A DNA stretch of 29,034 nucleotides from Nitrospinota bacterium (lineage in GTDB: Bacteria > Nitrospinota > Nitrospinia > JACRGO01): the NCBI GenBank assembly GCA_016212295.1, contig JACRGO010000003.1, forward strand, positions 1 to 29,034, read 5' to 3'. Below are positions 8,114-29,034 of the stretch, piece by piece. Position 1 is the first letter of the stretch. Each line of letters opens with the position of its first letter. Below the pieces are notes generated by a model that ran no database searches, was not told where the DNA came from, and saw only the letters and a list, made by a program, of their open reading frames with translations. The position numbers were made by a program, and so were the translations under genes.

Positions 8114-11100
8114 ATGCAAAAACTTGAAAGAAGGAAATTCCTTAAATTAAGCGCGGCCGCTGCCGCCGGAATTATCTTGTCCGGAATAGTCAGGGATTCC
8201 CTAGCGGCGTTGTCCCCCGTGGTGGATATAAAAAACCCCCTGGCCTATTATCCCGACAAGGACTGGGAAAAAGCGTACCACGACCAGTATAAGGCCGACC
8301 TCTCCTTTAAATTCCTGTGCGCCCCTAACGACACCCACAACTGCCGCCTCAGCGCCTTTGTAAGAAACGGGGTCATCACCAGGATGGAGCAGGCTTATGA
8401 TGTGGACCAGGCCGATGACCTTTACGGGAACAAGGCCACTCAAACCTGGCATCCGAGGGGTTGTCCCAGGGGACTGGCCTATATGCGGCGAAGCAACGGG
8501 CCCTTCCGGGTAAAATACCCGGCGGTGCGAAAGGGATGGAAGGAATGGTATGAAGCCGGGTTTCCCAGGGACCACGCCAACGGAAGGCCTCCGGCGAAAT
8601 TCATGAACAGGGGGACGGACGACTTTGCGCGGGTCACATGGGACGAGGTTTATGAAATGATCGCCAAGGCGTTGCTGGACATAGCGTCCACGTACAGCGG
8701 AAAAAGCGGGGCCGGTTTTCTGTTGAAACAGGGTTACCCGGAAGAGATGCTCCAGGGGATGAAGGACAAGGACGGCGGCATTGCGGGGGTCCGCGCCTTG
8801 AAATTCCGTGGAGGCATGGCGCTGCTAGGCGTCACCCGGCTCGCCGGCCTTTACCGTCTCGGCAATTCAATGGTTCTCCTGGACGATTACATCCGGAAAA
8901 AAGGACCGGACGCGTCAGCCGGGGCGACGCTGTGGGACAATTATGCCTGGCACACGGACCTTCCACCGGGCCAGCCAATGGTCCACGGCGCCCAGACCTT
9001 TGACCAGGAGTTTCATGATTTCTGGAATTCGGACCTTATCATTATCTCCGGCCTCAATATAGTTGAGAACAAGATGGCGGACCCTGTCTGGTGGCAAACC
9101 CACATGGAGAAAAAGAAAAAAATCGTTGTCATTGCACCGGAATATAATCCCACCGCCAGCAAGTCCGATTACTGGATACCTATCCGCTATGGCTGCGACG
9201 CGGCCTTGAACCTTGCGCTGTCCCACGTGATTATCAAGGAAGGACTCTGGGACGACGCCTATGTGAAAAAGTTCACGAACCAGCCCTTCCTTATTCGCAT
9301 GGACAATCTGAAACAGCTTAGATTCGAGGACATGGCGCCAGGAACCCCGCTCCTTGATCCGGGTGATGTATTGAGCATCGAACGCCTTGGAGGACACAAG
9401 GACACGCTTGGTACGATAGATGGAAAAATTCAATCCATTGAGCCTGAGTTCCAGACCAATTCAGTGATGATGGCAAAAAAGGGGCCTGTGGCCCTTACAA
9501 GGACCTGCTGCGGGGATTATGTGGACTCAGAGTTGAAGAAACTGGGAATGGAACTTGGGGACATTCAACTCGACTACAGCGGCGAGGCCCGGACCAAATC
9601 CGGCCCTGTGAAGGTGCGCACGGTCTTCAGCCTGTACAAGGAACTCCTTGAAGAGTATACCCCGGAAATTGTTGAGCGGGCGGCATGGTGTCCGGCTGAA
9701 AAGATCAGGAGGCTCGCGAAGGACATTGCGGAATCCAAGGCCGTCTCCTTTATCTGCGGCATGGGGATGAATATGTACCTCCATAACGATCTCATCAACA
9801 GGTCTTATTATCTGACAGCCACCCTGACCGGAAACATCGGAAAACCCGGGGCATGCGTATCCAGTTACGCGGGCAATTACAAGGCCCCGACTTTCAACGG
9901 GCTCCCTTCATGGATCATGGAAGACCCGTTCAACCAGACCCTTGATCCTGACGCGGATGGAACAGAAATCAAGAAGCGCAAATACGCCCGCTTTGAAAGC
10001 CAGCATTACTGGGCCCATGGGGACAGGCCGCTTATCGTCCAAACCCCCAAGGCAGGAAGGGTGGTTGTGACGGGCAGCACCCACATGCCTGCCCCAACCA
10101 AGATGATCTGGTCCAACAACGCTAACCAGATCGGAAACTCAAAATGGGCTTATGACGTTATAAAACGGTCCCTCCCGGAGCAGGAGCTATTGATCGCCAC
10201 GGACTTCGACTGGAACATGAATTGCGAGTATTCCGACATCGTCCTGGCAACGGAGGACTGGTCCTCATTCAGCCACCCTGATATGACCGCTTCCTGCACT
10301 AACCCCTTTCTCCAGTTCTGGCCGGTTTCCCCTCTGAAATCGATGTACGACACCAGGCACGACATAGAACACTACCTTGGCGTGGGCGAGGCCCTGGCCA
10401 GGATCACTGGAGACGCCAGATTTTCCAATCATTACAAGTTCGTCAAGGAGAAAAAAGTTGACGTCTATATGCAAAGGATCCTTGACGCCTCCACCCAGTT
10501 CAGGGGATACAAGGCCAGGGATTTAATTGAAAGGGGCGTGGGCGTCCTGGCCATGTTCAGGACCTATCCACGAATCCCGGCCTGGGAGAACATCAATGAA
10601 AGCGTTCCCTTTTTCACCAGGACCGGCAGAATGGAATTGTACCGGGAGGAAAACACTTGGATCAACCAGGGCGAGAACCTGATTTTGCACAGGGAGCCGG
10701 TTGAGGCCACGTTGTTCCAGACGAACGTCATTATCTCTCCCAAGGGATTCGAGGGGGTGCGGCCCAGGGATTACGGCATACCGGACGATGAAATAGACGG
10801 CGACGCCAAGACCCTTTACAACAAGATCTTCCAATGGGATTCCCTTCTCAGGACAACTAATCCCCTCACCAGGAAACACGGGCTTAATCTCCATTTCATA
10901 ACCCCTAAGCCCAGGCATCGCGCCCATTCCTCCTGGGGCGCCAGCGATTGGAACGTTATATGGTGCAGCAATTTCGGGGACCCTTACCGCATGGAAACAA
11001 GGACCCCCTGGGTAGGGGAAGAGGAAATGGACATCAACCCGGAAGACGCCAAGGAACTAGGCATCAAGGACGGCGATTGGGTGTGGGTGGACGCCAATCC

Positions 11101-11608
11101 GGAGGACCGGCCTTATGTCGGGATGAAAAAAGACGACCCCTATTACAAGGTCAGCCGCGCCATGATCCGTGTGCATTACAATCCTTCTTTTCCAAAGGGG
11201 ATGCTGAACGTAAAGCACGGGGCATACGGCGCAACGCACAAGTCGGTCGAGGCCCATGAAACACATGGAATCGCGATCACCGGCAGGGCGGCGGGCAGCT
11301 ACGCCGCGGCCTTCCGCTACGGGTCCCATCAATCCGCTGTGAGGACGTATCTCAATCCGACCCAAAGCGGGGACGAGTTCGCGCTTAAGGACTATTTCGA
11401 AAATAAAATGACCAAGGGATATTCCATGGACATGTACACCGTGACAGGGGCCCCCAAGGAGTCGCTTGTGAAAATCGCCTTTGCCGAACATGGGGGCCTG
11501 GACCGGAAAACCGCTTGGGAACCGGCCAAGACCGGGTTCACTCCCGGAAACCTCAATGAGGACATGAAAGGTTTCGTCGCGGGCGGGTTTATTATTTTTA
11601 AGTCGTAA
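8114..11608 (+). CDS. nxrA: Nitrite oxidoreductase-type alpha subunit (Mo-bis-PGD, DMSO reductase type II)
   Basis: The 1164-residue protein is a type II DMSO-reductase-family catalytic subunit closest in pattern to periplasmic NxrA, which interconverts nitrite and nitrate at a molybdenum bis-pyranopterin centre. The N-terminus is a Tat signal (RRKFLKL at residues 6-12, then a hydrophobic stretch). The FS0 cluster region is CAPNDTHNC (C69, H75, C77) followed by C117 in HPRGCPRG. D282 in WHTDLPPG aligns with the Asp that ligates molybdenum in NarG-type enzymes. The C-terminal domain near residues 960-1080 has the cofactor-binding pattern (NPEDAKELGIKDGDWVWVD). Length matches known NxrA (about 1150). 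Its expected partners nxrB and nxrC are not adjacent but lie 8.4 kb downstream. Relatives include nitrate, chlorate and selenate enzymes, so direction and substrate are inference. Confidence 0.9.
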   Translation: MQKLERRKFLKLSAAAAAGIILSGIVRDSLAALSPVVDIKNPLAYYPDKDWEKAYHDQYKADLSFKFLCAPNDTHNCRLSAFVRNGVITRMEQAYDVDQADDLYGNKATQTWHPRGCPRGLAYMRRSNGPFRVKYPAVRKGWKEWYEAGFPRDHANGRPPAKFMNRGTDDFARVTWDEVYEMIAKALLDIASTYSGKSGAGFLLKQGYPEEMLQGMKDKDGGIAGVRALKFRGGMALLGVTRLAGLYRLGNSMVLLDDYIRKKGPDASAGATLWDNYAWHTDLPPGQPMVHGAQTFDQEFHDFWNSDLIIISGLNIVENKMADPVWWQTHMEKKKKIVVIAPEYNPTASKSDYWIPIRYGCDAALNLALSHVIIKEGLWDDAYVKKFTNQPFLIRMDNLKQLRFEDMAPGTPLLDPGDVLSIERLGGHKDTLGTIDGKIQSIEPEFQTNSVMMAKKGPVALTRTCCGDYVDSELKKLGMELGDIQLDYSGEARTKSGPVKVRTVFSLYKELLEEYTPEIVERAAWCPAEKIRRLAKDIAESKAVSFICGMGMNMYLHNDLINRSYYLTATLTGNIGKPGACVSSYAGNYKAPTFNGLPSWIMEDPFNQTLDPDADGTEIKKRKYARFESQHYWAHGDRPLIVQTPKAGRVVVTGSTHMPAPTKMIWSNNANQIGNSKWAYDVIKRSLPEQELLIATDFDWNMNCEYSDIVLATEDWSSFSHPDMTASCTNPFLQFWPVSPLKSMYDTRHDIEHYLGVGEALARITGDARFSNHYKFVKEKKVDVYMQRILDASTQFRGYKARDLIERGVGVLAMFRTYPRIPAWENINESVPFFTRTGRMELYREENTWINQGENLILHREPVEATLFQTNVIISPKGFEGVRPRDYGIPDDEIDGDAKTLYNKIFQWDSLLRTTNPLTRKHGLNLHFITPKPRHRAHSSWGASDWNVIWCSNFGDPYRMETRTPWVGEEEMDINPEDAKELGIKDGDWVWVDANPEDRPYVGMKKDDPYYKVSRAMIRVHYNPSFPKGMLNVKHGAYGATHKSVEAHETHGIAITGRAAGSYAAAFRYGSHQSAVRTYLNPTQSGDEFALKDYFENKMTKGYSMDMYTVTGAPKESLVKIAFAEHGGLDRKTAWEPAKTGFTPGNLNEDMKGFVAGGFIIFKS

Positions 11609-18970: not shown

Positions 18971-19061
18971 GATTTCCAAAGGAGGCATAGCAGGTCGCTT
19001 AATAGGACCGATCTGTGGAAAGCGGAAGAAGACAAAATTCTTGAAAAAGGAGGGGCCTGGC

Positions 19062-19388
19062 ATGCAAGGGATTAATTCCAAATTGATTGAAACGGTTAAG
19101 GGCAAATTAATAAATGCCTATAATCCTATGGAAATTTACCTTTTTGGTTCTTCGGCTTGGGGAACGCCTGGTGATGAGAGCGATTTGGATTTGCTTATTG
19201 TGGTGGAAAAGTCCTCGGAAAAACCATATAAGCGGTCCATTAAGGGCTTAAAGGCTTTAAGAGGTTTAAAAATTGCCGAAGACATTTTGGTTTACACCAA
19301 GGATGAGTTTAAGGAACTCTCAATTGATATTTCCACCCTGTGTTTTAAAATTAAAAATGAAGGCATAAAGCTCTATGAAGCAGCATGA
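19062..19388 (+). CDS. MNT-type nucleotidyltransferase (antitoxin)
   Basis: From ATG 19062, behind AAAGGAGG, the product is 108 residues; the reading frame is open far upstream, overlapping the previous gene out of frame, but that part is not conserved. The core motif is FGSSAWGTPGDESDLDLLIVVE, the GS…DxD metal-binding pattern of minimal nucleotidyltransferases. It is followed by a HEPN gene that overlaps it by 14 bases, an intact MNT/HEPN toxin-antitoxin module in which the MNT protein counteracts the HEPN RNase. This is the second such module in the island; the first (14093) has lost its HEPN. Confidence 0.85.
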   Translation: MQGINSKLIETVKGKLINAYNPMEIYLFGSSAWGTPGDESDLDLLIVVEKSSEKPYKRSIKGLKALRGLKIAEDILVYTKDEFKELSIDISTLCFKIKNEGIKLYEAA

Positions 19389-19764
19389 GGTTTGGCTGGT
19401 TAAAGCCGAAAATGATTTAAAATCGGCCAAAAAACTAATTGAAGGCGATGACCCCATTTTAGATACCGCCATCTACCATACCCAACAATGCGCTGAAAAG
19501 GCTTTAAAAGCCTACCTTTCCTTCCTGCAAAAACCTATCCAAAAAATCCATAATCTTGGATTATTGGTTGACCTCTGCTCTGATTGCGATAAGGATTTTG
19601 CAGCGCTTTTGGACGACGCGGAAGAATTGAGTCCATACGATACCGCGTTTAGATATCCGGACCTTATTTTAGAGCCTGATAAAAAAGACGTAAGTGACGC
19701 CATTGAAAAAAGCGAAAAGATACTTTATTTTGTTAAACAGAAAATAAGAAGACCTCAAATATGA
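19375..19764 (+). CDS. HEPN-domain protein (toxin of MNT/HEPN pair)
   Basis: The 129-residue product is the HEPN partner of the preceding MNT gene. It begins HEVWLVKAENDLKSAKKLIEGDDPILDTAIYHTQQCAEKALKAYLSFL, the classical HEPN helix pair with the HTQQCAEKALKAYL core, then a KIHNLGLLVDLC helix and SPYDTAFRYPDL near residue 90. No full R-x4-6-H RNase motif is visible, so activity may differ from the best-studied HEPN toxins. Length is complete. ATG 19375 overlaps the MNT gene by 14 bases. Confidence 0.85.
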   Translation: MKQHEVWLVKAENDLKSAKKLIEGDDPILDTAIYHTQQCAEKALKAYLSFLQKPIQKIHNLGLLVDLCSDCDKDFAALLDDAEELSPYDTAFRYPDLILEPDKKDVSDAIEKSEKILYFVKQKIRRPQI

Positions 19765-19792
19765 AGAAGAAATTATCAAGGAGCCGCGGAAC

Positions 19793-19942
19793 GTGCCTGA
19801 TGATCAAATTTTTAATCTTCTCAGTATCATACGCATTTTTAAAAAAAGTATAATTACGCGGAGAGAAGTGGATTTCCATCTCAAACAAGAATTTGGCGAG
19901 TGGGATACTTTAAGCGATGAGGCACTGTTACTGCTGTTCTAA
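19793..19942 (+). CDS. Possible small protein
   Basis: GTG 19793 lies nine bases behind AAGGAG and opens 49 codons (VPDDQIFNLLSIIRIFKKSIITRREVDFHLKQEFGEWDTLSDEALLLLF). The composition is protein-like and the tail (W-x-LSDEALLLL) resembles small uncharacterised proteins. A rival frame from ATG 19761 covers the same DNA less convincingly. No family is recognised. Downstream to 20071 I see no gene and no clear nxrB promoter. Confidence 0.35.
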   Translation: MPDDQIFNLLSIIRIFKKSIITRREVDFHLKQEFGEWDTLSDEALLLLF

Positions 19943-20071
19943 TTGTTTCTTTCACCACGCAAATGAAGGCCGCTAATTTTCCGTATAGATGAAAACCAAG
20001 AAAGTTGTGGAAGTTATTTTTCTATAACTTTAGACTCTTTAGTTCCTAATAACTTACTAACGAAAAAAATC

Positions 20072-21214
20072 ATGGTGAGAGACGACCTGACCAAGGTCTA
20101 CAATCGGCAATTGCGCAGGGAAATGGACTACTCCTATGACTCCGCGCGGCCAAAGAGGCAGATAGCATACATCTTTGACATAAACCGCTGCATCGGCTGC
20201 CAGACCTGCACCATAGCTTGCAAGTCCACCTGGACCTTCGGAAAGGGCCAGGAATACATGTGGTGGAACAACGTGGAAAGCAAGCCCTTCGGGTCCTATC
20301 CCCAGCACTGGGACATAAAATTGCTAGCCATGCTTGGCCCTCAACAATGGGACAAGGGAGTCTACGCGGGGAAGACCATTTTCGAGTCGGCCCCGGAAGA
20401 CGAGAAGTACCTTGGGTTCCGCGTCAAAGAGCAGGAATGGCGCTTCCCCAACATGTATGAAGACACCGCCACGGGCCACGATATGCAAGGCGTGGACGCC
20501 GCGAAAAAACACGGAGTATGGTTTCATTACCTGCAAAGGATATGCAACCATTGCACTTATCCCGCCTGCCTGGCCGCCTGTCCGCGCAAGGCAATATATA
20601 AAAGGGACGAGGACGGCATTGTCCTGATAGACCAATCAAGATGCCGGGGTTACCGCGAATGCGTGGGCGCGTGTCCATACAAGAAATCCATGTACAGGCC
20701 TGAAAGCAGGACGAGCGAGAAATGCATCGCCTGTTTCCCCAGGGTCGAAAAAGGGGAGATGCCGCGCTGCGTCGTGGCCTGCGTTGGAAAGATAAGGCTG
20801 CAAGGATACCTGACGACCGACCCAAGGAGGGCCGACCCGAATAATCCCATTGATTACCTTGTCCATTTTGAAAAGGTGGCCTTGCCGTTGTACCCTCAAT
20901 TCGGCACTGAGCCTAATGTCTATTATCTTCCGCCTAGATGGGTCCCCCTGGAGTATCTGGGCCAGTTGTTCGGTCCGGGCGTGGAAGAGGCCATAGCAAA
21001 GCGGACCGATCCCAGCGACAAACTCTTCGCGTGCCTGCGGTGTTTCGGGATGCAGCGGGACGTCCTTTACAGGTTTGAACTCCAGAACGGCCGTGTGCTA
21101 GCGTATAACGACAAGGACGAAAAGGTCATTGATCTGGCCTTGAAGGACGAGCCTTTTTATGAAAGACCCATGGTGGACAAGGAAAGGAATACACTGAGGA
21201 TTAACGAGCCATAG
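20072..21214 (+). CDS. nxrB: Nitrite oxidoreductase-type beta subunit (four Fe-S clusters)
   Basis: The 380-residue protein carries four cysteine groups that relay electrons from NxrA. Group I is C40, C43, C46, C50 (CIGCQTCTIAC, then KSTWTFGKGQEYMWWNNVE). Group II is C158, C161, C166, C170. Group III is C191-x2-Y194-x2-C197-x3-C201, where the second position is Tyr, consistent with the 3Fe-4S cluster of NarH-type subunits. Group IV is C218, C221, C233, C237. The GQEYMWWNNVE-x-KP-x-G-x-YPQ segment is a hallmark of NxrB from Nitrospira, Nitrospina and anammox bacteria. There is no signal peptide, as expected if it is exported with the Tat-bearing NxrA. No ribosome site precedes ATG 20072. nxrC follows 183 bp later. 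Confidence 0.92.
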   Translation: MVRDDLTKVYNRQLRREMDYSYDSARPKRQIAYIFDINRCIGCQTCTIACKSTWTFGKGQEYMWWNNVESKPFGSYPQHWDIKLLAMLGPQQWDKGVYAGKTIFESAPEDEKYLGFRVKEQEWRFPNMYEDTATGHDMQGVDAAKKHGVWFHYLQRICNHCTYPACLAACPRKAIYKRDEDGIVLIDQSRCRGYRECVGACPYKKSMYRPESRTSEKCIACFPRVEKGEMPRCVVACVGKIRLQGYLTTDPRRADPNNPIDYLVHFEKVALPLYPQFGTEPNVYYLPPRWVPLEYLGQLFGPGVEEAIAKRTDPSDKLFACLRCFGMQRDVLYRFELQNGRVLAYNDKDEKVIDLALKDEPFYERPMVDKERNTLRINEP

Positions 21215-21268
21215 ATACTTGCTCGTATATTCCGGGAATTCGTCTCTCACAATTTTAAAAAAGATATA

Positions 21269-21365
21269 GAACGCGGATGACGCGGATAAAACGGATCTAC
21301 ACGGGTTAAATATGATGAAAATAAAAATTCCGTATAAATCCGTTTTATCCGTGTCATCCGTGTTC
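21269..21365. repeat. 28-bp inverted repeat between nxrB and nxrC
   Basis: The arm at 21269-21296 and the arm at 21338-21365 are complementary at 26 of 28 positions, and both mismatches are G-T, so the RNA could form a continuous 28-pair stem. Each arm is built from repeated CGGAT(G/A)-type words (GCGGATGACGCGGAT…). The phrase resembles intergenic repeats common in environmental genomes. No T-tract follows. It may modulate nxrC expression relative to nxrB. Confidence 0.65.
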
Positions 21366-21397
21366 CATTAAAATTTAAAATATCTTTTGCTAGCATT

Positions 21398-22246
21398 ATG
21401 AAAAAAACATTGTTACTCATATTTTTCTTCGTTCTCGTTTCCCATTCAGTAAATGCGAACGCCGAGCACCCGGAGCACCCGGAGCCTCCGTCAGTGACTT
21501 ACACTGTGTCCGTTGAGGACGCCGGAAACCGCGAAATCCCTCTGGACCCCTTCAATATGGAATTCTGGGGCGGAGTTCCAGGCACGGATTTATTATTGGA
21601 GATGCAAAAAGTCGTCAGGCCAATGGGGGGCGGCACGATTCACGAACTCAGGGTCCAGGCCGTCCACAACGCTACGTCCATAGCCTTTCTTCTTGAATGG
21701 AAGGATGACACGCCTGATTGGGAGAATTTGCTGCTGTACGCCGACGCCGCCGCGGTTGAATTTCCGTCCGACGGGGGAGAAGAAGGGTCCGCCTTCATGG
21801 GGGACGCCGCGCACATGGTCAATATCTGGCACTGGAAGGCCGATTGGCAAAGGAACATGCAGGGAGGCTTTCAGGACACCAGGAGCGCCTTCCCGTCCAT
21901 GTTCAGCAACTATTCAACAGGTGATTTGATGGATAACGTGGCCGAGGCGGTGGGGAACCCCAATTCCAGCCGAATTCAAACCTCTCCCGTGGCGGCCTTT
22001 TTAGCCAAGGGCTTCGGGACCCTGACCTTCAATTCATACCAGAACGTCCGCGGGCGGGGGGATTACAGGGACGGGAAATGGCGCGTGGTTTTCCTGAGGG
22101 GCCTCGAAACCCCTTCTAAAATAGAGGCCCAGTTCAAGAAAGGGGTCAAGAATTTCGCCGCCTTCGCGGTTTGGGACGGAAAGCATAGGGAGCGGAACGG
22201 CATGAAGTCCTTCACCAAAAACTGGGCGCATCTGATTATCAAGTAA
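21398..22246 (+). CDS. nxrC: Nxr-type gamma subunit, ethylbenzene-dehydrogenase-related haem-b protein
   Basis: The 282-residue protein has a Sec signal peptide (MKKTLLLIFFFVLVSHSVNANA-EH) and the strand-rich fold of the haem-binding gamma subunits of type II DMSO-reductase complexes (ethylbenzene dehydrogenase gamma, NxrC candidates). Recognisable parts are IPLDPFNMEFWGGVPG, ELRVQAVHNATSIAFLLEWKDDTPD, DAAHMVNIWHWKADWQ and the C-terminal FAVWDGKHRERNGMKS. In this family haem b is bound by Met and Lys; M140-K147-like residues of the HMVNIWHWK segment and the late Met-Lys are candidates. No membrane anchor is present, so the complex would be soluble or attached by another protein. Its 3' end is overlapped antisense by the hsp20 read-through frame. 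Confidence 0.85.
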   Translation: MKKTLLLIFFFVLVSHSVNANAEHPEHPEPPSVTYTVSVEDAGNREIPLDPFNMEFWGGVPGTDLLLEMQKVVRPMGGGTIHELRVQAVHNATSIAFLLEWKDDTPDWENLLLYADAAAVEFPSDGGEEGSAFMGDAAHMVNIWHWKADWQRNMQGGFQDTRSAFPSMFSNYSTGDLMDNVAEAVGNPNSSRIQTSPVAAFLAKGFGTLTFNSYQNVRGRGDYRDGKWRVVFLRGLETPSKIEAQFKKGVKNFAAFAVWDGKHRERNGMKSFTKNWAHLIIK

Positions 22247-22750
22247 AAAATGGATAAAAATATCTGATAGTATAGGAGTTTTTATTTTTTTACTTATAAA
22301 TAAAACAGTGGGCTTGGGCAGGGTGATGGTCAACACCCCTTTCCTGAATTCGGCGTTGGCCTTGGCTTCGCCCATGCCGGTGGGCAAGGGGATAGTTCTT
22401 TGGAAGGAGCCGTATGAGCGTTCCATGCGGTAATAACCCCGCTTTTTCTCTTCCTTCTCCTCCTTTTTCTCCCCCTTAATGGTAAGGGTTTCATTGCTTA
22501 TGGCAACGTCTATGTCTTTTTCATCCATGCCTGGAAGCTCAACTGAAACCTCCACCTCTTTCTCCTTTTCCGCCACGTTGATCCTGGGACTGAAGGCGCC
22601 CAGCCTGCTTTCTCCAAAACCAAAGGGTTCAAGGTTGAAACCGGGATCAAAGAAGCTGTCAAACATGCGGTTCATTTCCCTTTGGAGGGTGCCCAGTTCC
22701 CGCCACAGGGACCTGCCAAAATCGTATCTCTCAAGTTCAGGCCACAACAT
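22034..22750 (-). CDS. Hsp20 small heat-shock protein with a run-on C-terminus
   Basis: Residues 1-146 are a normal small heat-shock protein: MLWPELERYDFGRSLWRELGTLQREMNRMFDSFF, then an alpha-crystallin domain from about 56 (RINVAEKEKEVEVSVELPGMDEKDIDV) to LTITLPK at 146. AAGGAGGA precedes ATG 22750. After LPK the usual short tail with an I-x-I motif and stop is absent. The frame continues 92 residues through AT-rich DNA and then antisense into the 3' end of nxrC, stopping at 22034. The likely break is near 22312. A remaining KKIK shortly after may be a trace of the tail or chance. Chaperone function may persist, but oligomer assembly could be affected. Confidence 0.75.
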   Translation of the reverse strand: MLWPELERYDFGRSLWRELGTLQREMNRMFDSFFDPGFNLEPFGFGESRLGAFSPRINVAEKEKEVEVSVELPGMDEKDIDVAISNETLTIKGEKKEEKEEKKRGYYRMERSYGSFQRTIPLPTGMGEAKANAEFRKGVLTITLPKPTVLFISKKIKTPILSDIFIHFLLDNQMRPVFGEGLHAVPLPMLSVPNREGGEILDPFLELGLYFRRGFEAPQENHAPFPVPVIPPPADVLV

Positions 22751-22891
22751 AAGTAGAGTCCTCCTTTTAAATTGGTTTTAGCCGCTTAATTGGATAGCGC
22801 CCGCCTTTCTGATTTTTTTATACAATTGGAAATTTTTTTTTTGTCAAGCGGCAAAAAATTGCTTTTTACAAAAAGACCCTCAAAAAAATCC

Positions 22892-22920
22892 TTGACGTTC
22901 GTTATTCCTTTTGGTATATT
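22892..22920 (+). promoter_or_regulatory. Sigma-70 type promoter of modE
   Basis: TTGACG (22892-22897) and TATATT (22915-22920) with a 17-base spacer, 32 bases before ATG 22952. Same -35 hexamer as the nxrA promoter. The -10 lies inside the candidate ModE box 22900-22923. Confidence 0.7.
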
Positions 22921-22923
22921 ACG
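22900..22923. promoter_or_regulatory. Candidate ModE operator 1 (autoregulatory)
   Basis: CGTTAT (22900-22905), 12 bases, ATTACG (22918-22923): five of six positions are complementary. Known ModE boxes have CGnTAT-type half-sites in this spacing. Placement across the spacer and -10 would block RNA polymerase, giving autorepression. Confidence 0.5.
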
Positions 22924-22951
22924 CTCCTGTGCATACAAAAATTTGAAACCA

Positions 22952-23332
22952 ATGTCCAAAAAAAAGATTGATACCGGGAAAAAAGGCGGGGCAAAAAGCT
23001 CTTATGAGTTAAAGGGCAGGATATGGGTGTCCGGACAAGAGGGGACCTTCGTGGGGTATGGGCGAGCGGTTCTGCTGGAACGCATTAGGGATTGCGGCTC
23101 CATCTCCGGGGCGGCGAAATCCATGAAGATGTCCTACCGCCACGCCTGGAGGCTGGTGGATTCCATGAACCGCCAAGCCGGGACTCCTCTGGTGGAGACC
23201 GCCACCGGCGGCGCGAGGGGCGGAGGGGCTCGTCTTACCAAGGCAGGAGAAAGGGCCATTGAAAATTTCCTGCGGCTTCACCAGAGACTCAAGGAATTTT
23301 TGAGAGAGGAGGCAGGCAATTTGACCTGGTAA
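22952..23332 (+). CDS. modE: ModE-like molybdate-responsive regulator, DNA-binding domain only
   Basis: The start is ATG 22952, downstream of the promoter; an upstream extension of the frame would place the promoter inside the gene. The 126-residue product has the ModE N-terminal winged helix: GYGRAVLLERIRDCGSISGAAKSMKMSYRHAWRLVDSMNRQAGTPLVETATGGARGGGARLTKAGERAIENF. The SISGAAKSMKMSYRHAW segment is the recognition helix region. The C-terminal Mop/TOBE domains that bind molybdate in E. coli ModE are absent, so molybdate sensing must be indirect or by another protein; single-domain ModE forms are known. It lies upstream of the porin and modABC, with candidate operators before itself and before that operon. 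Confidence 0.85.
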   Translation: MSKKKIDTGKKGGAKSSYELKGRIWVSGQEGTFVGYGRAVLLERIRDCGSISGAAKSMKMSYRHAWRLVDSMNRQAGTPLVETATGGARGGGARLTKAGERAIENFLRLHQRLKEFLREEAGNLTW

Positions 23333-23347
23333 AAAAAATTTGCGTTG

Positions 23348-23371
23348 CGTTATGCTTTTTTGGGTATAACG
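23348..23371. promoter_or_regulatory. Candidate ModE operator 2 (porin-modABC operon)
   Basis: CGTTAT (23348-23353), 12 bases, ATAACG (23366-23371): a perfect inverted repeat with the half-site sequence and spacing of ModE boxes. It lies in the 91-bp gap between modE and the porin start, and TATAAC within it could be a -10 element. Same half-site and spacing as operator 1. Confidence 0.65.
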
Positions 23372-23423
23372 AATTTTTCATGAAACAATGCAACCTTTAT
23401 TTTCAGAAAGGAGTTTGTCCGCT

Positions 23424-24707
23424 ATGGCAGCCGTCAAAAAGCAAAACCAATTTGTAAATATATTTCTGGCCTTCTGGCTTATTTTTTCAGTAGCGGACAC
23501 GATTCTCCCTTCCTCTTCCAGGGCCGAGCCAAAGGATATTTTGAGTCTGTTGAAGGAAAAAGGGATCTTGAGCGAGGAGGATATCCTTACTATCAGGGAA
23601 TCGGAAAAAGAAAGGTTGAAAGGCAAATTCAAGAATGGCTTCCAATGGGAAACCGGGGATGGACTGGCGGCAATACAAATCGGCGGACGCGTCAATGCTG
23701 ATATTGACATCTTTGAAAATGCTCATGCGAAAAACGATTCAATCTACCTTAAAAGGGCAAGAATTTTCACCTCCGGCAGGATTTCAGGCCATTACGAGTG
23801 GAAGGTGGAAGGAGAGTTCGCGGAAGGAACCGTTGCGGCCAGGGACCTTTTTATTAACATAAACCATGACGAAAGAATGCAGGTGAAAATCGGGCAATAT
23901 AAGGAACCCTTCGCCCTGGAGCAAAATTCCTCCGTCAACTATATAGACTTCAAGGAGCGCTCCATCATAGGCAGCCGAATAGCGCCGGACCGCGACATCG
24001 GCCTTGTGCTCCACGGCCTGTTGTCAAATGATACCCTCGGCTACCAACTTGGCGTATTCAATGGAAACGGGCTCAATAATGCGTCGGACTCCGACAATTA
24101 TAAAGACGCCGCCATGCGATATGGCATGAACCCTTCAAGGACCTTCATATAGGAGGCGCTTTCACCTGGGGGCATAAATCCAGAGGACTCGTTGATTACA
24201 AGGCGCCGGTTTCCGGCTCCGCTATCCTGGCCTTTGATTCCTCCAAGGTAAGCGGAAAAAATATGAATCTTTTAAGGTCCGGCGCGGAGCTGGCTTACGG
24301 AATCGGGCCTTGGAGGGTCGTCTCCGAGTACATGCGGGCCGATTACAATGATGTGGATCTTTTATCCAGTGGAAGCCGGGAGGATTTTTTCGCTCAGGGG
24401 ATTTACGCCACCGCCAGTTGGTTCTTAACGGGCGAAGAAAAGCGGCCCCAGAAAGGGGGCGTGGGAATTGCTTGCCGGATATGAATGGGTGGATGTGGAC
24501 AAGGATTTTTTCAAGAAGGGCGGACTGGCCGGCGCATCAGAAACCAACTCGTATAAAGCCGGGGTCAACTGGTATCTGAATCCCATGTTCCGCGTTATGC
24601 TGGATTACGTTTACAACGACTATTCCAGCGCCATAGTCAGCCATGACAATGGAACAAAAGATGACAGGGAGCACATGGGTTGGGCGCGGTTCGCCCTGGA
24701 ATATTAA
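23424..24707 (+). pseudogene. OprO/OprP-type outer-membrane porin with two compensating frameshifts
   Basis: From ATG 23424, 11 bases behind AAAGGAG, the gene begins with a signal peptide (ending SSSRA-EP), a short N-terminal helix (ILSLLKEKGILSEEDILTIRE), then phosphate-selective-porin motifs: IQIGGRVNADIDIF, YLKRARIFTSGRISGHYEWKVEGEF, KIGQYKEPFALEQ, FKERSIIGSRIAPDRDIGL, YQLGVFNGNG. At 24131-24133 (CCC) one C appears lost; restoring it gives NPFKDLHIGGAFTWG. Near 24463-24467 one base appears extra; the frame then ends with LLAGYEWVDVD…MFRVMLDYVYNDYSS and FALEY, a proper porin terminus. Net length is 428 codons, normal for the family. Both indels are in or next to homopolymer runs, so base-calling error is a real alternative to pseudogenisation. 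Linked to modABC, it may admit oxyanions such as molybdate. Confidence 0.8.
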
Positions 24708-24748
24708 AATACATAAACACAAAATTTTATTTGACAAGGAGACCTCGA

Positions 24749-25624
24749 ATGAAAAACAAGGCATTTCACCTTTTAAAAAAAATATTTTCCCTGGCGCTTT
24801 TCAGTGGCATCACCATTTACGGGACTTTCGTCTTGGCGGAAGAACAATCCTTGATGGTCTTTGCGGGAGCGGCAAGCAAACCGCCCACGGAAGAGGCGGC
24901 CAGGGCCTTTGAAAAAAAGACCGGCATAAAAGTGGACCTCGTGTTCGGCGGGTCCGGCTATGTCCTTTCCCAGATGATCCTGAGCAAAAAGGGAGATATT
25001 TATTTCCCCGGATCGTCGGACTATATGGAAAAGGCCAAAAGAGAGGGTTATGTGTTCCCGGAGACGGAAAGGGTCGTGGTTTATCTTGTGCCTTCGCTCA
25101 ACGTCCAGAAAGGAAACCCAAAGGAAATTAAAGGTCTAAGGGATCTACTCCGGCCCGGAATCAGGGTGGCCATCGCCAATCCGGAAGGGGTGTGCCTGGG
25201 CGCCTACGCGGTGGAGATCATTGAGAAACAATTTTCCTCCGTTGAAAAAGAGGCATTGAAAAAAAATATTATCAACTATACGGAAAGTTGCGAAAAAACG
25301 GCGGCCGCCCTATCATTGAAAATGGCGGACGCGGTGATCGGGTGGGGGGTCTTCGAGCATTGGGATCCGGAAAGGATAGATACCGTTCCCTTGAGGCCTT
25401 CCGACATCCTTCGGGTGGGCTATATTCCCGTCGCCGTATCGAGGTTCACCGCCCGGAGGGAGCAGGCTCAAAAATTTATCGATTTCCTTGTTTCCGGCGA
25501 AGGGAAGGAAATTTTCCGGAAGTACCATTATTATATGTCCCCTGAAGATGCCTTCGCCTGGATCGGTGAAAAGAAGACGGTGGGCGGAGAATACGTTGTT
25601 CCCGGAGAGTGGATCAAGAGATGA
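24749..25624 (+). CDS. modA: Molybdate/tungstate-binding periplasmic protein
   Basis: The start is ATG 24749, behind AAGGAG; the frame is open upstream but the signal peptide (MKNKAFHLLKKIFSLALFSGITIYGTFVLA) begins here. The product is 291 residues. The ModA/WtpA-type fold is visible: LMVFAGAASKPPTEEAARAFEKKTGIKVDLVFGGSGYVLSQMILSKKGDIYFPGSSDYMEKA, then VPSLNVQKGNPKEIKGLRDLL, VAIANPEGVCLGAYAVEI, and ADAVIGWGVFE. These segments carry the oxyanion-binding Ser/Ala/Tyr-type positions of the family. The stop overlaps modB (ATGA), so the three mod genes are translationally coupled. Whether the ligand is molybdate or tungstate cannot be told from sequence. Confidence 0.9.
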   Translation: MKNKAFHLLKKIFSLALFSGITIYGTFVLAEEQSLMVFAGAASKPPTEEAARAFEKKTGIKVDLVFGGSGYVLSQMILSKKGDIYFPGSSDYMEKAKREGYVFPETERVVVYLVPSLNVQKGNPKEIKGLRDLLRPGIRVAIANPEGVCLGAYAVEIIEKQFSSVEKEALKKNIINYTESCEKTAAALSLKMADAVIGWGVFEHWDPERIDTVPLRPSDILRVGYIPVAVSRFTARREQAQKFIDFLVSGEGKEIFRKYHYYMSPEDAFAWIGEKKTVGGEYVVPGEWIKR

Positions 25625-26397
25625 ATTTGAAAAGGCTTTCCATCGCTTTTGCGTTCCTGACGCTTTTTTTGTACGGGGGCTTGATAGGGTCGCTCTTCTA
25701 TTTTTATCGAGGACCTCTCTTCCTGGAGGCCCTCTTTTCCGACAGGACGCTTTTTTCCATCCGGCTGAGCCTGGCCACAGCCACAATCGCGACCATTATC
25801 TCCGTCGCCGTCGCCGTTCCTTCGGCCTACGCCCTAAGCAGGTTTGATTTTCCCGGGAAACGGTTCATCGACACCCTTCTGGAATTTCCCATGATCGTCT
25901 CTCCCGCCGCCCTCGGGGCCATGATTCTCATCTTCTTCAGCACACCCCTGGGGGAAGTCCTCCAGGAAAGAACGGTCCAGTTTGTCTTTGCCTTCGCCGG
26001 GATCGTCCTTGCCCAATTTGTCACCACTGCGGGGGTGGCGACAAGGCTCCTCAAGGCGGCCTTGGACGAGACCCCCCGGCGGTACGAGGAGGTGGCGCGT
26101 TCATTGGGGGCCTCCCCCTTCCAGGCCTTTTTCACCATCACCCTTCCACTGGCGAAACGGGGGATTATCGCCTCCGTGATCCTGACGTGGGCAAAGGCCC
26201 TGGGGGAGTTCGGGGCGACCATTACCGTGGCGGGCTCCATGGCCATGAAGACGGAGACCCTTCCCATCGCCATATTCATGAGGCTTTCCGGAGCGGATAT
26301 CGAGGGTTCGGCGGTGTTGATCCTGATCCTGGTCTCCATTGGATTCGCCATCCTTTACGGGACAAGGTTCCTTACGGAGAAGACGCCCCATGCTTGA
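25621..26397 (+). CDS. modB: Molybdate ABC transporter permease
   Basis: ATG 25621 overlaps the modA stop in ATGA; a GTG 12 bases earlier is possible. The 258-residue product has about six membrane segments and the inner-membrane-permease EAA loop with the ModB-type pattern (ETPRRYEEVARSLGASPFQAFFTITLPLAKRGIIASVILTWAKALGEFGATITVAGSM), which contacts the ATPase ModC. RFDFPGKRFIDTLLEFPMIVSPAALGAMILIFF is the usual second-third helix region. The stop overlaps modC by eight bases. It forms the channel of the ModABC molybdate importer. Confidence 0.92.
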   Translation: MNLKRLSIAFAFLTLFLYGGLIGSLFYFYRGPLFLEALFSDRTLFSIRLSLATATIATIISVAVAVPSAYALSRFDFPGKRFIDTLLEFPMIVSPAALGAMILIFFSTPLGEVLQERTVQFVFAFAGIVLAQFVTTAGVATRLLKAALDETPRRYEEVARSLGASPFQAFFTITLPLAKRGIIASVILTWAKALGEFGATITVAGSMAMKTETLPIAIFMRLSGADIEGSAVLILILVSIGFAILYGTRFLTEKTPHA

Positions 26398-27484
26398 GAT
26401 AAAAAATCTTGTGGTAAGGGCCGGAAATTTTACACTGGATGGCGTGAACCTTTCGGTGGAGGCCCCCGGCTGCCATGTCCTTCTAGGACCCACGGGCAGC
26501 GGCAAGACCGTCTTTTTGGAGACGATCATGGGCCTTAAGCGTCCGCATCAAGGAGAGATTCGCTTGGAGGGAAAGGATATAACCGGACTTCCTCCGGAAA
26601 GGAGGGGAATCTCCTATCTCCCACAGGACTTGGCTCTTTTTCCCCATCTCACCGTGCGGGAAAATATTCTGTACGGATTGACGGTTAGGAAGATAAAACA
26701 AGGAGCGGCCTACTGGTTCGCTTATGAATTGGTGGAAACCCTGGGAATAAAACATATCCTCGACCGTTCAACACGCCATATCAGCGGAGGAGAGAAACAG
26801 CGAGTGGCGCTTGCGAGGGCCATTGCCCCTGGATGCAAATTTCTTATCCTGGATGAACCTTTATCCGCCTTGCACGAGGGCCTGAAAAAAGAGCTGTGGT
26901 TTTTGATAAAAGACCTTAAGAAGAAGTACGGGCTGGCCATTTTCATGGTAACCCACGATACGGAGGAAGCCTTTTTCCTCGGGGACAGGATCAGCGTGAT
27001 AATTGACGGCTTGGTTCATCAGACAGGGGAGAAGGAGGAGGTTTACGGATGCCCGGAAACCATAGAAGTCGCGCGTTTTTTTGGTATTGGAAATTTATTC
27101 GAGGCTGAGGTGATGGAAGAAACGGAAGAAAATATAATTGCCATGTGCAAGGAACTCAATTCCAAACTGACTCTATCCAAGGCCGCCGGGCCGTCATGCC
27201 CTTTGCGTCCGGGTTCTCTCATCACCATAGGCATAAGGCCGGAGAATGCGCTGATTTTAAGGCCAGACCTAAAGCGGCCGGAACAGAGTAATCTACTTGC
27301 CGGCGAGATCACGGATGTTTTTCAAAAAGGACCATCTTCCATAGTCCTGTTCTCGGCGGAAAGAACTAACAGGATTATTGAGATTGAAATCCCAGGCTAC
27401 GCCTTCAGTAAACTCAACATCGCCCAGGGAGATAGTGTGGACGTCACCTTAAAAAGCGAAAACATCTTTTGTATGCCGCGTTGA
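26390..27484 (+). CDS. modC: Molybdate ABC transporter ATP-binding protein
   Basis: From ATG 26390, behind GGAGA and overlapping modB by eight bases, the product is 364 residues. Walker A is GPTGSGKT (residues 33-40); the Q-loop LPQDLALFPHLTV, signature ISGGEKQR, Walker B FLILDEPLSALHE and the H-loop MVTHD follow in order. After residue 240 a TOBE-type domain is present (LAGEITDVFQKGPSSIVLFSAERTNRIIEIEIPGYAFSKLNIAQGDSVDVTLKSENIF), the oxyanion-binding regulatory module seen in ModC. Since the ModE here lacks its own TOBE domain, ModC might be the molybdate sensor by inference. There is no clear terminator before the convergent PiT gene. Confidence 0.93.
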   Translation: MLEIKNLVVRAGNFTLDGVNLSVEAPGCHVLLGPTGSGKTVFLETIMGLKRPHQGEIRLEGKDITGLPPERRGISYLPQDLALFPHLTVRENILYGLTVRKIKQGAAYWFAYELVETLGIKHILDRSTRHISGGEKQRVALARAIAPGCKFLILDEPLSALHEGLKKELWFLIKDLKKKYGLAIFMVTHDTEEAFFLGDRISVIIDGLVHQTGEKEEVYGCPETIEVARFFGIGNLFEAEVMEETEENIIAMCKELNSKLTLSKAAGPSCPLRPGSLITIGIRPENALILRPDLKRPEQSNLLAGEITDVFQKGPSSIVLFSAERTNRIIEIEIPGYAFSKLNIAQGDSVDVTLKSENIFCMPR

Positions 27485-27546
27485 ATCCTGAGAACGAGGA
27501 CTCAGAAGCCAGAATTCAGAATAAGGGAAGAATTTTTTCGGCATCC

Positions 27547-28647
27547 TTATTTCAAGAGCCAGTACAATAGCGCCGCGAGCAGAGCCGCCGCCGGCAACGT
27601 AACGATCCAGGCGAGAAGCATATCCGCAACGGTCTTCCATCGGATATGCTTTCCACCGCTATGCAGCCCAATGCCAATGATCGCGCCGGAAGAAACATGC
27701 GTGGTGGAAACAGGCATGCCAAACCGTGAAGCGGCCCCGACCAAGAGCGAAGTGATCAGGTTGGCGGCAAAACCTTCAGTGGTATTCATAGGGGTGACTT
27801 TTCGCGCAAGCGTCTCCGTGACACGGAGCCCGGCGATCATACTCCCGATACCCATCGCGACAGCCACCATGATATAGAACCCGATATCCGAAACACCGGC
27901 TAGCGCGCTTGAGGCGATACCAAGAGCCAGAATCTTGGGCGTGTCATTCAGTCCCCTGGCAAAGCTGGCTGCGCCGGCGCTCGCCCAGTGGAGCGAATCC
28001 ATCAGATTAAGCCTGGAAATGACGCTTGGAGACGCGGAACAATCCCTGGTTTGTCCCACGACAACTACAGGAGCAGTCCCGGCCATGGCCGCTGCCGAGC
28101 AGGAAGGCTGCAGCGCCACATCGTGTTTTTCGACGCAAACGCAGTATCGATTTAACCCAGAAAAACAGATTCTCACCAAGGGAAACACCGCCCACATCAG
28201 CCCCAACGCGATCAGAGGGCTCGCGGCCAATGGCAGTGCGATTTTGCTTCCGAGGGCCATCCACTTGACCCCGCCAAAACCAGCCGCCACCAATCCTGCT
28301 CCGCACAGCGCGCCCGCGATTGAATGCGTTGTTGAGACAGGAAGTCCTGTGCGCGAGGCAAATAGAATCCAACCGATAGCGCCCATGGACACAGCCATCA
28401 AAAATCCCGGCCCTTCGGGAAATGAAGTGAGCAGGCCGTTTCCACTGAAGGTCTTCACAAGCTTCTGGGCCGCGAAAGCCGCGCAGATTCCTCCAGCGAC
28501 TGTCCCAAGGGCGCCCCAAATAACGGCGCGGCGAAAGTTTGCCACCCCGCTGCCGACAAGGGTGGCGATGCCCTTGCTGATGTCGTTGCCGCCGTTGGCG
28601 AACGCCAGCGCCAGCGTCAAAAGGGCGAGGACGCTTGTCATTATCAT
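27547..28647 (-). CDS. PiT-family inorganic phosphate transporter
   Basis: I choose ATG 28647 because GGAG ends six bases ahead; 28659 or a TTG at 28698 are alternatives. From it the product is 366 residues and hydrophobic throughout. PiT signature repeats are plain: FANGGNDISKGIATLVGSG near the start, PVSTTHSIAGALCGAGLVAAG in the first half, then FARGLNDTPKILALGIASSAL and PVSTTHVSSGAIIGIGLHSGG in the second. The duplicated GxNDxxK and PVSTTH motifs are those used for cation-coupled phosphate uptake in the inner membrane. A polar loop with several Cys (CVCVEKHDV…, RDCSASPSV) lies mid-protein, as in other members of this bacterial subgroup. It converges with modC and has no visible partner; arsenate or other anion transport cannot be excluded. 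Confidence 0.9.
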   Translation of the reverse strand: MIMTSVLALLTLALAFANGGNDISKGIATLVGSGVANFRRAVIWGALGTVAGGICAAFAAQKLVKTFSGNGLLTSFPEGPGFLMAVSMGAIGWILFASRTGLPVSTTHSIAGALCGAGLVAAGFGGVKWMALGSKIALPLAASPLIALGLMWAVFPLVRICFSGLNRYCVCVEKHDVALQPSCSAAAMAGTAPVVVVGQTRDCSASPSVISRLNLMDSLHWASAGAASFARGLNDTPKILALGIASSALAGVSDIGFYIMVAVAMGIGSMIAGLRVTETLARKVTPMNTTEGFAANLITSLLVGAASRFGMPVSTTHVSSGAIIGIGLHSGGKHIRWKTVADMLLAWIVTLPAAALLAALLYWLLK

Positions 28648-28819
28648 GGCCGTCTCCATATCCACGGATGTAAACCCGCCGCAATCCTTGCTTAACAAAT
28701 GATCTTTTTGAATTTGGATATTTAAACTTTCAATTATCCTTGGTTAGGATGGCACATCCTATACCAACTTCCCACCCGCGTCAAGAAAAATTGCCTGAGG
28801 ACGGCTGTGCCCTGCTTCA

Positions 28820-28841
28820 TTGCGGCCATGCCGCGCTATGG
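28820..28841 (-). repeat. REP-like hairpin repeat, inverted copy
   Basis: Reverse complement reads CCATAGCGCGGCATGGCCGC, matching the 12061 and 13910 copies. It sits upstream of the PiT gene, in a gap of about 330 bp (28648-28979) without a gene. Confidence 0.5.
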
Positions 28842-28878
28842 ATAAGATTGACAATTTAAACTTGATTTTTAAAAAACT

Positions 28879-28931
28879 ATTGAATTTATTCAATCCCGTT
28901 AGCCAGTAGCTAACGCAACACTTACTACTGG
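28879..28931. promoter_or_regulatory. Chain of hairpins, two mutually exclusive
   Basis: ATTGAAT/ATTCAAT (28879-28894) is followed by CGTTAGC-CAGTA-GCTAACG (28897-28915). CCAGTAG (28903-28909), which overlaps the second hairpin, can instead pair with CTACTGG (28925-28931). Competing stems about 50 bases before the next start codon resemble attenuators, but no T-tract is present. Confidence 0.4.
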
Positions 28932-28979
28932 CGAAAGGTGACGTCTTCATGAATGCCTATTGAATGGGAGTAGAATATC

Positions 28980-29034
28980 GTGTCAAAAAAGGATAATCAA
29001 GTAAAACCGTCATTCAGAGACAGAGCTCCAGTGT
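28980..29034 (+). CDS. Start of an unknown gene (cut by window edge)
   Basis: GTG 28980 lies about ten bases behind ATGGGAG and opens 18 codons without a stop to the edge (SKKDNQVKPSFRDRAPV…). Basic N-terminus, no signal peptide. Too short to identify. Confidence 0.4.
   Translation, partial: MSKKDNQVKPSFRDRAPV

Follow-up and report, generated by a model that had tools for sequence, protein, structure and literature searches.

Two palindromes on either side of a gene for a small ModE-type regulator were found in the window, i.e. the whole stretch of 29,034 nucleotides of Nitrospinota DNA analyzed here. With a probability of roughly 0.88, as judged from sequence, both are operators (Mo-boxes) of this adjacent regulator, a ModE protein consisting of a helix-turn-helix (HTH) domain only (ModE-S), which would repress the porin-modABC operon and modE when molybdenum is sufficient. 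The presence of a ModE-type operator before the porin-modABC operon is strongly supported, because its half-site and spacing are kept among relatives of the regulator and because Methylophilaceae display the same gene order, box included. Binding by the 126-aa protein, repression as opposed to activation, and the nature of the signal are inferred. The order on the + strand is: modE promoter with box, modE-like gene, perfect box, Porin_O_P porin, and modA-, modB- and modC-like genes.

Sequence and position of the two palindromes

The palindrome at 23348-23371 (+ strand), CGTTATGCTTTTTTGGGTATAACG, is composed of two perfectly matched 6-bp arms around a 12-bp spacer (CGTTAT-N12-ATAACG). Its exact symmetry had been claimed in the earlier note and was borne out by the sequence, as was its location between a modE-like gene (22952..23332) and a molybdate transporter operon (porin-modABC, from 23424). 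It adjoins the only ModE-domain gene detected in the source genome. The site conforms to the 24-bp dyad CGNTAT-N12-ATANCG taken from the published E. coli ModE consensus, ATCGNTATATA-N6-TATATANCGAT (PMC545781), and thus shares the CGNTAT half-site, total length of 24, spacing and dyad symmetry of the E. coli ModE/modA operator, whereas the inner triplets ATA/TAT of the latter are replaced by GCT/GGT.

Without mismatch, this pattern was encountered only once in the whole assembly (3,743,818 bp, 90.5% complete), at 23348-23371, so that the genome-wide search proposed earlier uncovered no scatter of random copies. When the 91-bp gap between modE and the porin gene was simulated 200,000 times with an order-1 Markov model, not one perfect site appeared, and base composition gave an estimate of 7e-6 for the same gap. 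Sites with at most one mismatch elsewhere in the genome numbered three (contigs C40, C169 and C207) and are probably coding sequence, since each lies within an open frame (105 to 884 codons). A relaxed pattern, with any base at position 3 and one mismatch, matched 85 genome sites vs 84 for a reversed control; as this count equals background, only the strict sequence at the modE-porin locus carries the signal. A different 24-mer, CGTTATTCCTTGTTCGATATTCCG, was present in identical or near-identical form on four contigs of the source genome (C22, C98, C137 and C172) and resembles a fragment of an interspersed repeat more than a ModE site.

A second box, CGTTATTCCTTTTGGTATATTACG, missed by the earlier note, was found at 22900-22923 (+ strand) in front of the modE-like gene. 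It displays one mismatch, and the chance of a site as good in the gap before modE is ~3e-4. It covers the spacer and the -10 element of a sigma-70-like modE promoter, TTGACG-17-TATATT (22892..22920, + strand), of which the consensus scan found one vs 0.8 expected in shuffled sequences. This -35/box geometry was repeated in locus L012 of the same-class genome G002 and in some other relatives. In G002 the sequence before modE is GGTTATTCCTTTTTGTATATTACG, near-identical to the second box and with the -35 position kept, and copies of CGTTATTCC...TATATTACG precede modE in Nitrospirota and Gammaproteobacteria. With a second operator over its promoter, the modE gene probably represses itself.

On the porin side, a possible weak promoter, TTGCGT-19-TATAAC (or -18-GTATAA; 23340..23370, + strand), is embedded in the perfect box. 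It was recognized by visual inspection and escaped the consensus scan; its -35 hexamer displays an offset of -8 from the box, equal to that at 22892. Both boxes are thus positioned at promoters, the modE-side promoter being good and that of the porin operon weak. A ModE-S dimer is predicted to bind the two CGTTAT half-sites. The 22900 box would then cover the spacer and -10 element of modE, and the 23348 box the likely porin-modABC promoter; as the boxes lie over likely promoters, bound ModE-S would block RNA polymerase by promoter occlusion at both sites. In such a scheme porin-modABC would be repressed and modE autorepressed under molybdenum sufficiency, and a shortage would lead to derepression.

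The regulator and its relatives

The 126-aa regulator (modE-S, 22952..23332, + strand) matched the ModE domain model TIGR00637 with 84.1 bits (E 5e-24), below the curated cut-off of 98.5, as well as PF00126 (HTH_1, LysR-type HTH). Its best solved relatives were PDB 2ijl ('Molybdenum-binding transcriptional repressor', 135 aa, HTH-only; E 8e-19) and also E. coli ModE (1b9m). No C-terminal TOBE/Mop molybdate-binding domain was detected in it by Pfam scan. The protein therefore combines the two features of ModE-S, a ModE-type winged-helix domain and the lack of a TOBE/Mop domain. Its identification as a full-length ModE was rejected, the two molybdate-binding TOBE domains, i.e. the ligand-binding part of classical ModE as in E. 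coli, being missing.

The source genome, whose 90.5% completeness leaves room for a missing gene, yielded no further ModE domain, no full-length ModE and no stand-alone Mop protein; its single TOBE (PF03459) match belonged to a second ModC. Direct sensing of molybdate by the regulator is thus unlikely, since it lacks a molybdate-binding domain and the search for a full-length ModE came up empty. For the same reasons, and with no stand-alone Mop protein in the genome, the signal relayed to ModE-S is somewhat more plausibly molybdenum-cofactor (Moco) status than molybdate itself, by analogy with Agrobacterium. ModE-S of A. tumefaciens reportedly represses modABC via two Mo-boxes and responds to Moco, not molybdate (Hoffmann et al. 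2016). Two imperfect N12 boxes were indeed located upstream of modABC at the Agrobacterium locus considered here (L115). Both systems have an HTH-only regulator and N12 Mo-boxes beside modABC, whereas the present locus differs by a box before modE-S itself, a porin as first gene of the operon and a divergent ModABC.

Desulfovibrio ModE likewise consists of a DNA-binding domain alone, and its sensing mechanism was stated to be unclear (Rodionov et al. 2004, PMC545781). Its predicted operator, CGGTCACG-N14-CGTGACCG, differs from the present one, in which the E. coli-type half-site is kept (PMC545781).

Relatives of the regulator were sought in 84,980 species genomes; 80 were obtained, and 78 out of 79 complete ones displayed the HTH-only length. 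Boxes with spacers of 4 to 24 were searched from 500 bp upstream to 900 bp downstream of these modE-like genes. Spacer 12 stood out, with 16 perfect sites, 34 with at most one mismatch and 47 with at most two among the 80 loci, vs zero to one locus for any other spacer at the one-mismatch level. At the same level, the true half-site was recovered at 34 loci; its 119 permutations reached two loci at most and 0.18 on average. The 80 loci, which are not all independent (many are from Hymenobacter), span Nitrospirota, Deltaproteobacteria/Thermosulfurimonas, Bacteroidota, Alpha-, Beta- and Gammaproteobacteria, and others. The conserved part consists of the CGTTAT/ATAACG arms at fixed spacing, the middle being variable. 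Half-site and spacing are thus kept together with the regulator, and the earlier claim that the palindrome displays those of known ModE operators agrees with these relatives as it does with the spacing of the published consensus.

The strict form CGTTAT-N12-ATWACG was present in zero to four copies per genome in nine relatives, mostly exactly at the modE/mod locus, and in several of them it was essentially unique and located at the mod locus. The two loci with the closest transporter homologues (L048 and L057) displayed a perfect box beside modA with modE-S adjacent. G002 carried a promoter-embedded box before modE; the gene itself is cut in two by contig ends, and modABC adjoins its second part. 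In most of the other same-class loci read (L010-L038), a single HTH-only homologue of ModE was present, with neither a modABC match nor a good box within ~1.5 kb; class-level footprinting therefore yielded G002 only, and broader relatives were needed. A nearly complete genome of the same genus (G001) displayed no ModE-S protein match and only a distant ModA, which indicates that the boxed locus is not common to the whole genus. In Desulfococcus sp. 4484_241 (locus L058, 5457-7493), a near-identical box, CGTTATGCTTTTTGGGGAATAACG, lies between modE-S and a downstream gene for a NitT/TauT-like (NMT1-type) substrate-binding protein; a mobB-like gene lies upstream, as read from translations.

The porin-modABC operon and neighboring genes

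The first gene of the operon encodes a Porin_O_P-family outer-membrane porin (23424..24707, + strand; PF07396, E 1e-13 on the first part) and is interrupted. Its first frame stops at 24152 and similarity runs on in other frames to 24707, the frame changing twice within 24130-24480 and returning to the first near 24460. A tblastn search with a Methylophilaceae porin matched pieces at both ends of the region. The break may be an assembly or sequencing error or may mark a decaying gene; as the frame is interrupted in the assembly, a working porin should not be taken for granted. The earlier note had predicted molybdate control of the operon including this porin. The operator before the operon supports such control, while direct sensing of molybdate is not supported for a regulator consisting of an HTH domain alone, and the interrupted frame makes a functional porin uncertain.

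Downstream, on the + strand, lie genes for a divergent modA-like periplasmic oxyanion-binding protein (24749..25624; TIGR01256, 71.1 bits, above the cut-off of 62.5), a modB-like permease (25621..26397; TIGR01581, 198 bits, and TIGR02141, 166 bits, both slightly below cut-off) and a modC-like ATPase (26390..27484), for which WtpC was the closest model, with a weak TOBE_3 match. The modA-like protein is 63-67% identical to modA of L048 and L057. Since ModB and ModC do not reach the molybdate-specific cut-offs and WtpC is the model closest to ModC, tungstate could be a substrate as well. A second, conventional ModA (contig C131) and ModC (contig C186) are encoded in the source genome, and no box with at most two mismatches was found in the stretches read at these loci.

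In two Methylophilaceae (L117 and L118), modE and a box are accompanied by modABC, with a Porin_O_P-like porin in its vicinity. L118 displays the same order, modE-box-porin-modA-modB-modC, and the same box position; the Methylophilaceae arrangement differs from the present one by a conventional ModA (PRK10677 equivalog) and an intact porin.

A type II DMSO-reductase-like molybdoenzyme cluster lies just upstream of the regulator (alpha, 8114-11608; beta, 20072-21214; EB_dh-type heme b or gamma, 21398-22246); family scores do not single out its substrate. No Rfam riboswitch match (e.g. Moco motif) was found in 19000-29034.

Alternative explanations and meaning

The palindrome could instead serve chiefly to end modE transcription, as an intrinsic terminator made up of a hairpin with a T-rich run after it. 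At 23348-23371, just 3' of the modE stop codon, a scan indeed recovered a stem of 10 pairs, counting G-U as a pair, with AATTTTT directly behind it. Such hairpin matches are, however, expected here by chance (mean 1.1), and the folding z-score was only -1.19. A terminator would also leave the fixed spacing and variable middle of the box in relatives unaccounted for, and boxes occur at promoters upstream of modE, where it would be needless; this explanation is therefore very unlikely. Similarly improbable is a true operator at which ModE-S acts as an activator, or on its own gene only. ModE of E. coli is also an activator of some Mo-enzyme operons, and the second box over the modE promoter would suit control of modE alone, but both boxes overlap likely core promoters, which fits repression, and the transporter operons of relatives carry boxes directly beside modA.

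Least credible is a chance palindrome whose likeness to an operator arises from AT-rich promoter sequence. The -10 element and the right arm do share letters, and the relaxed pattern was no more frequent than its control. Against this stand an estimated probability of ~1e-5 or less for the modE-porin gap, co-conservation at 34 of 80 loci, far above the permuted control, and the near-uniqueness of the strict box, mostly at the modE/mod locus, in the genomes of relatives.

The reading of both palindromes as ModE-S operators is thus preferred. The site at 23348-23371 is almost certainly, as judged from sequence, a ModE-type binding site: a real operator, ordinary in kind, and a known type of switch in a new organism. 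A more tentative possibility, for which the odds are rather low, is that the boxed operon constitutes a dedicated high-affinity route for molybdate (or tungstate), provided with an outer-membrane Porin_O_P channel and switched by a cofactor-reading HTH-only ModE, beside a separate, box-less conventional ModA/ModC.

In several phyla, an operator of fixed half-site and spacing is conserved together with HTH-only ModE regulators; the present locus suggests that an outer-membrane porin may be a member of a molybdenum regulon. The finding bears on how HTH-only ModE proteins sense molybdenum, a question left by comparative work (PMC545781); as the strict box is near-unique per genome, the locus would offer a simple two-operator test system.
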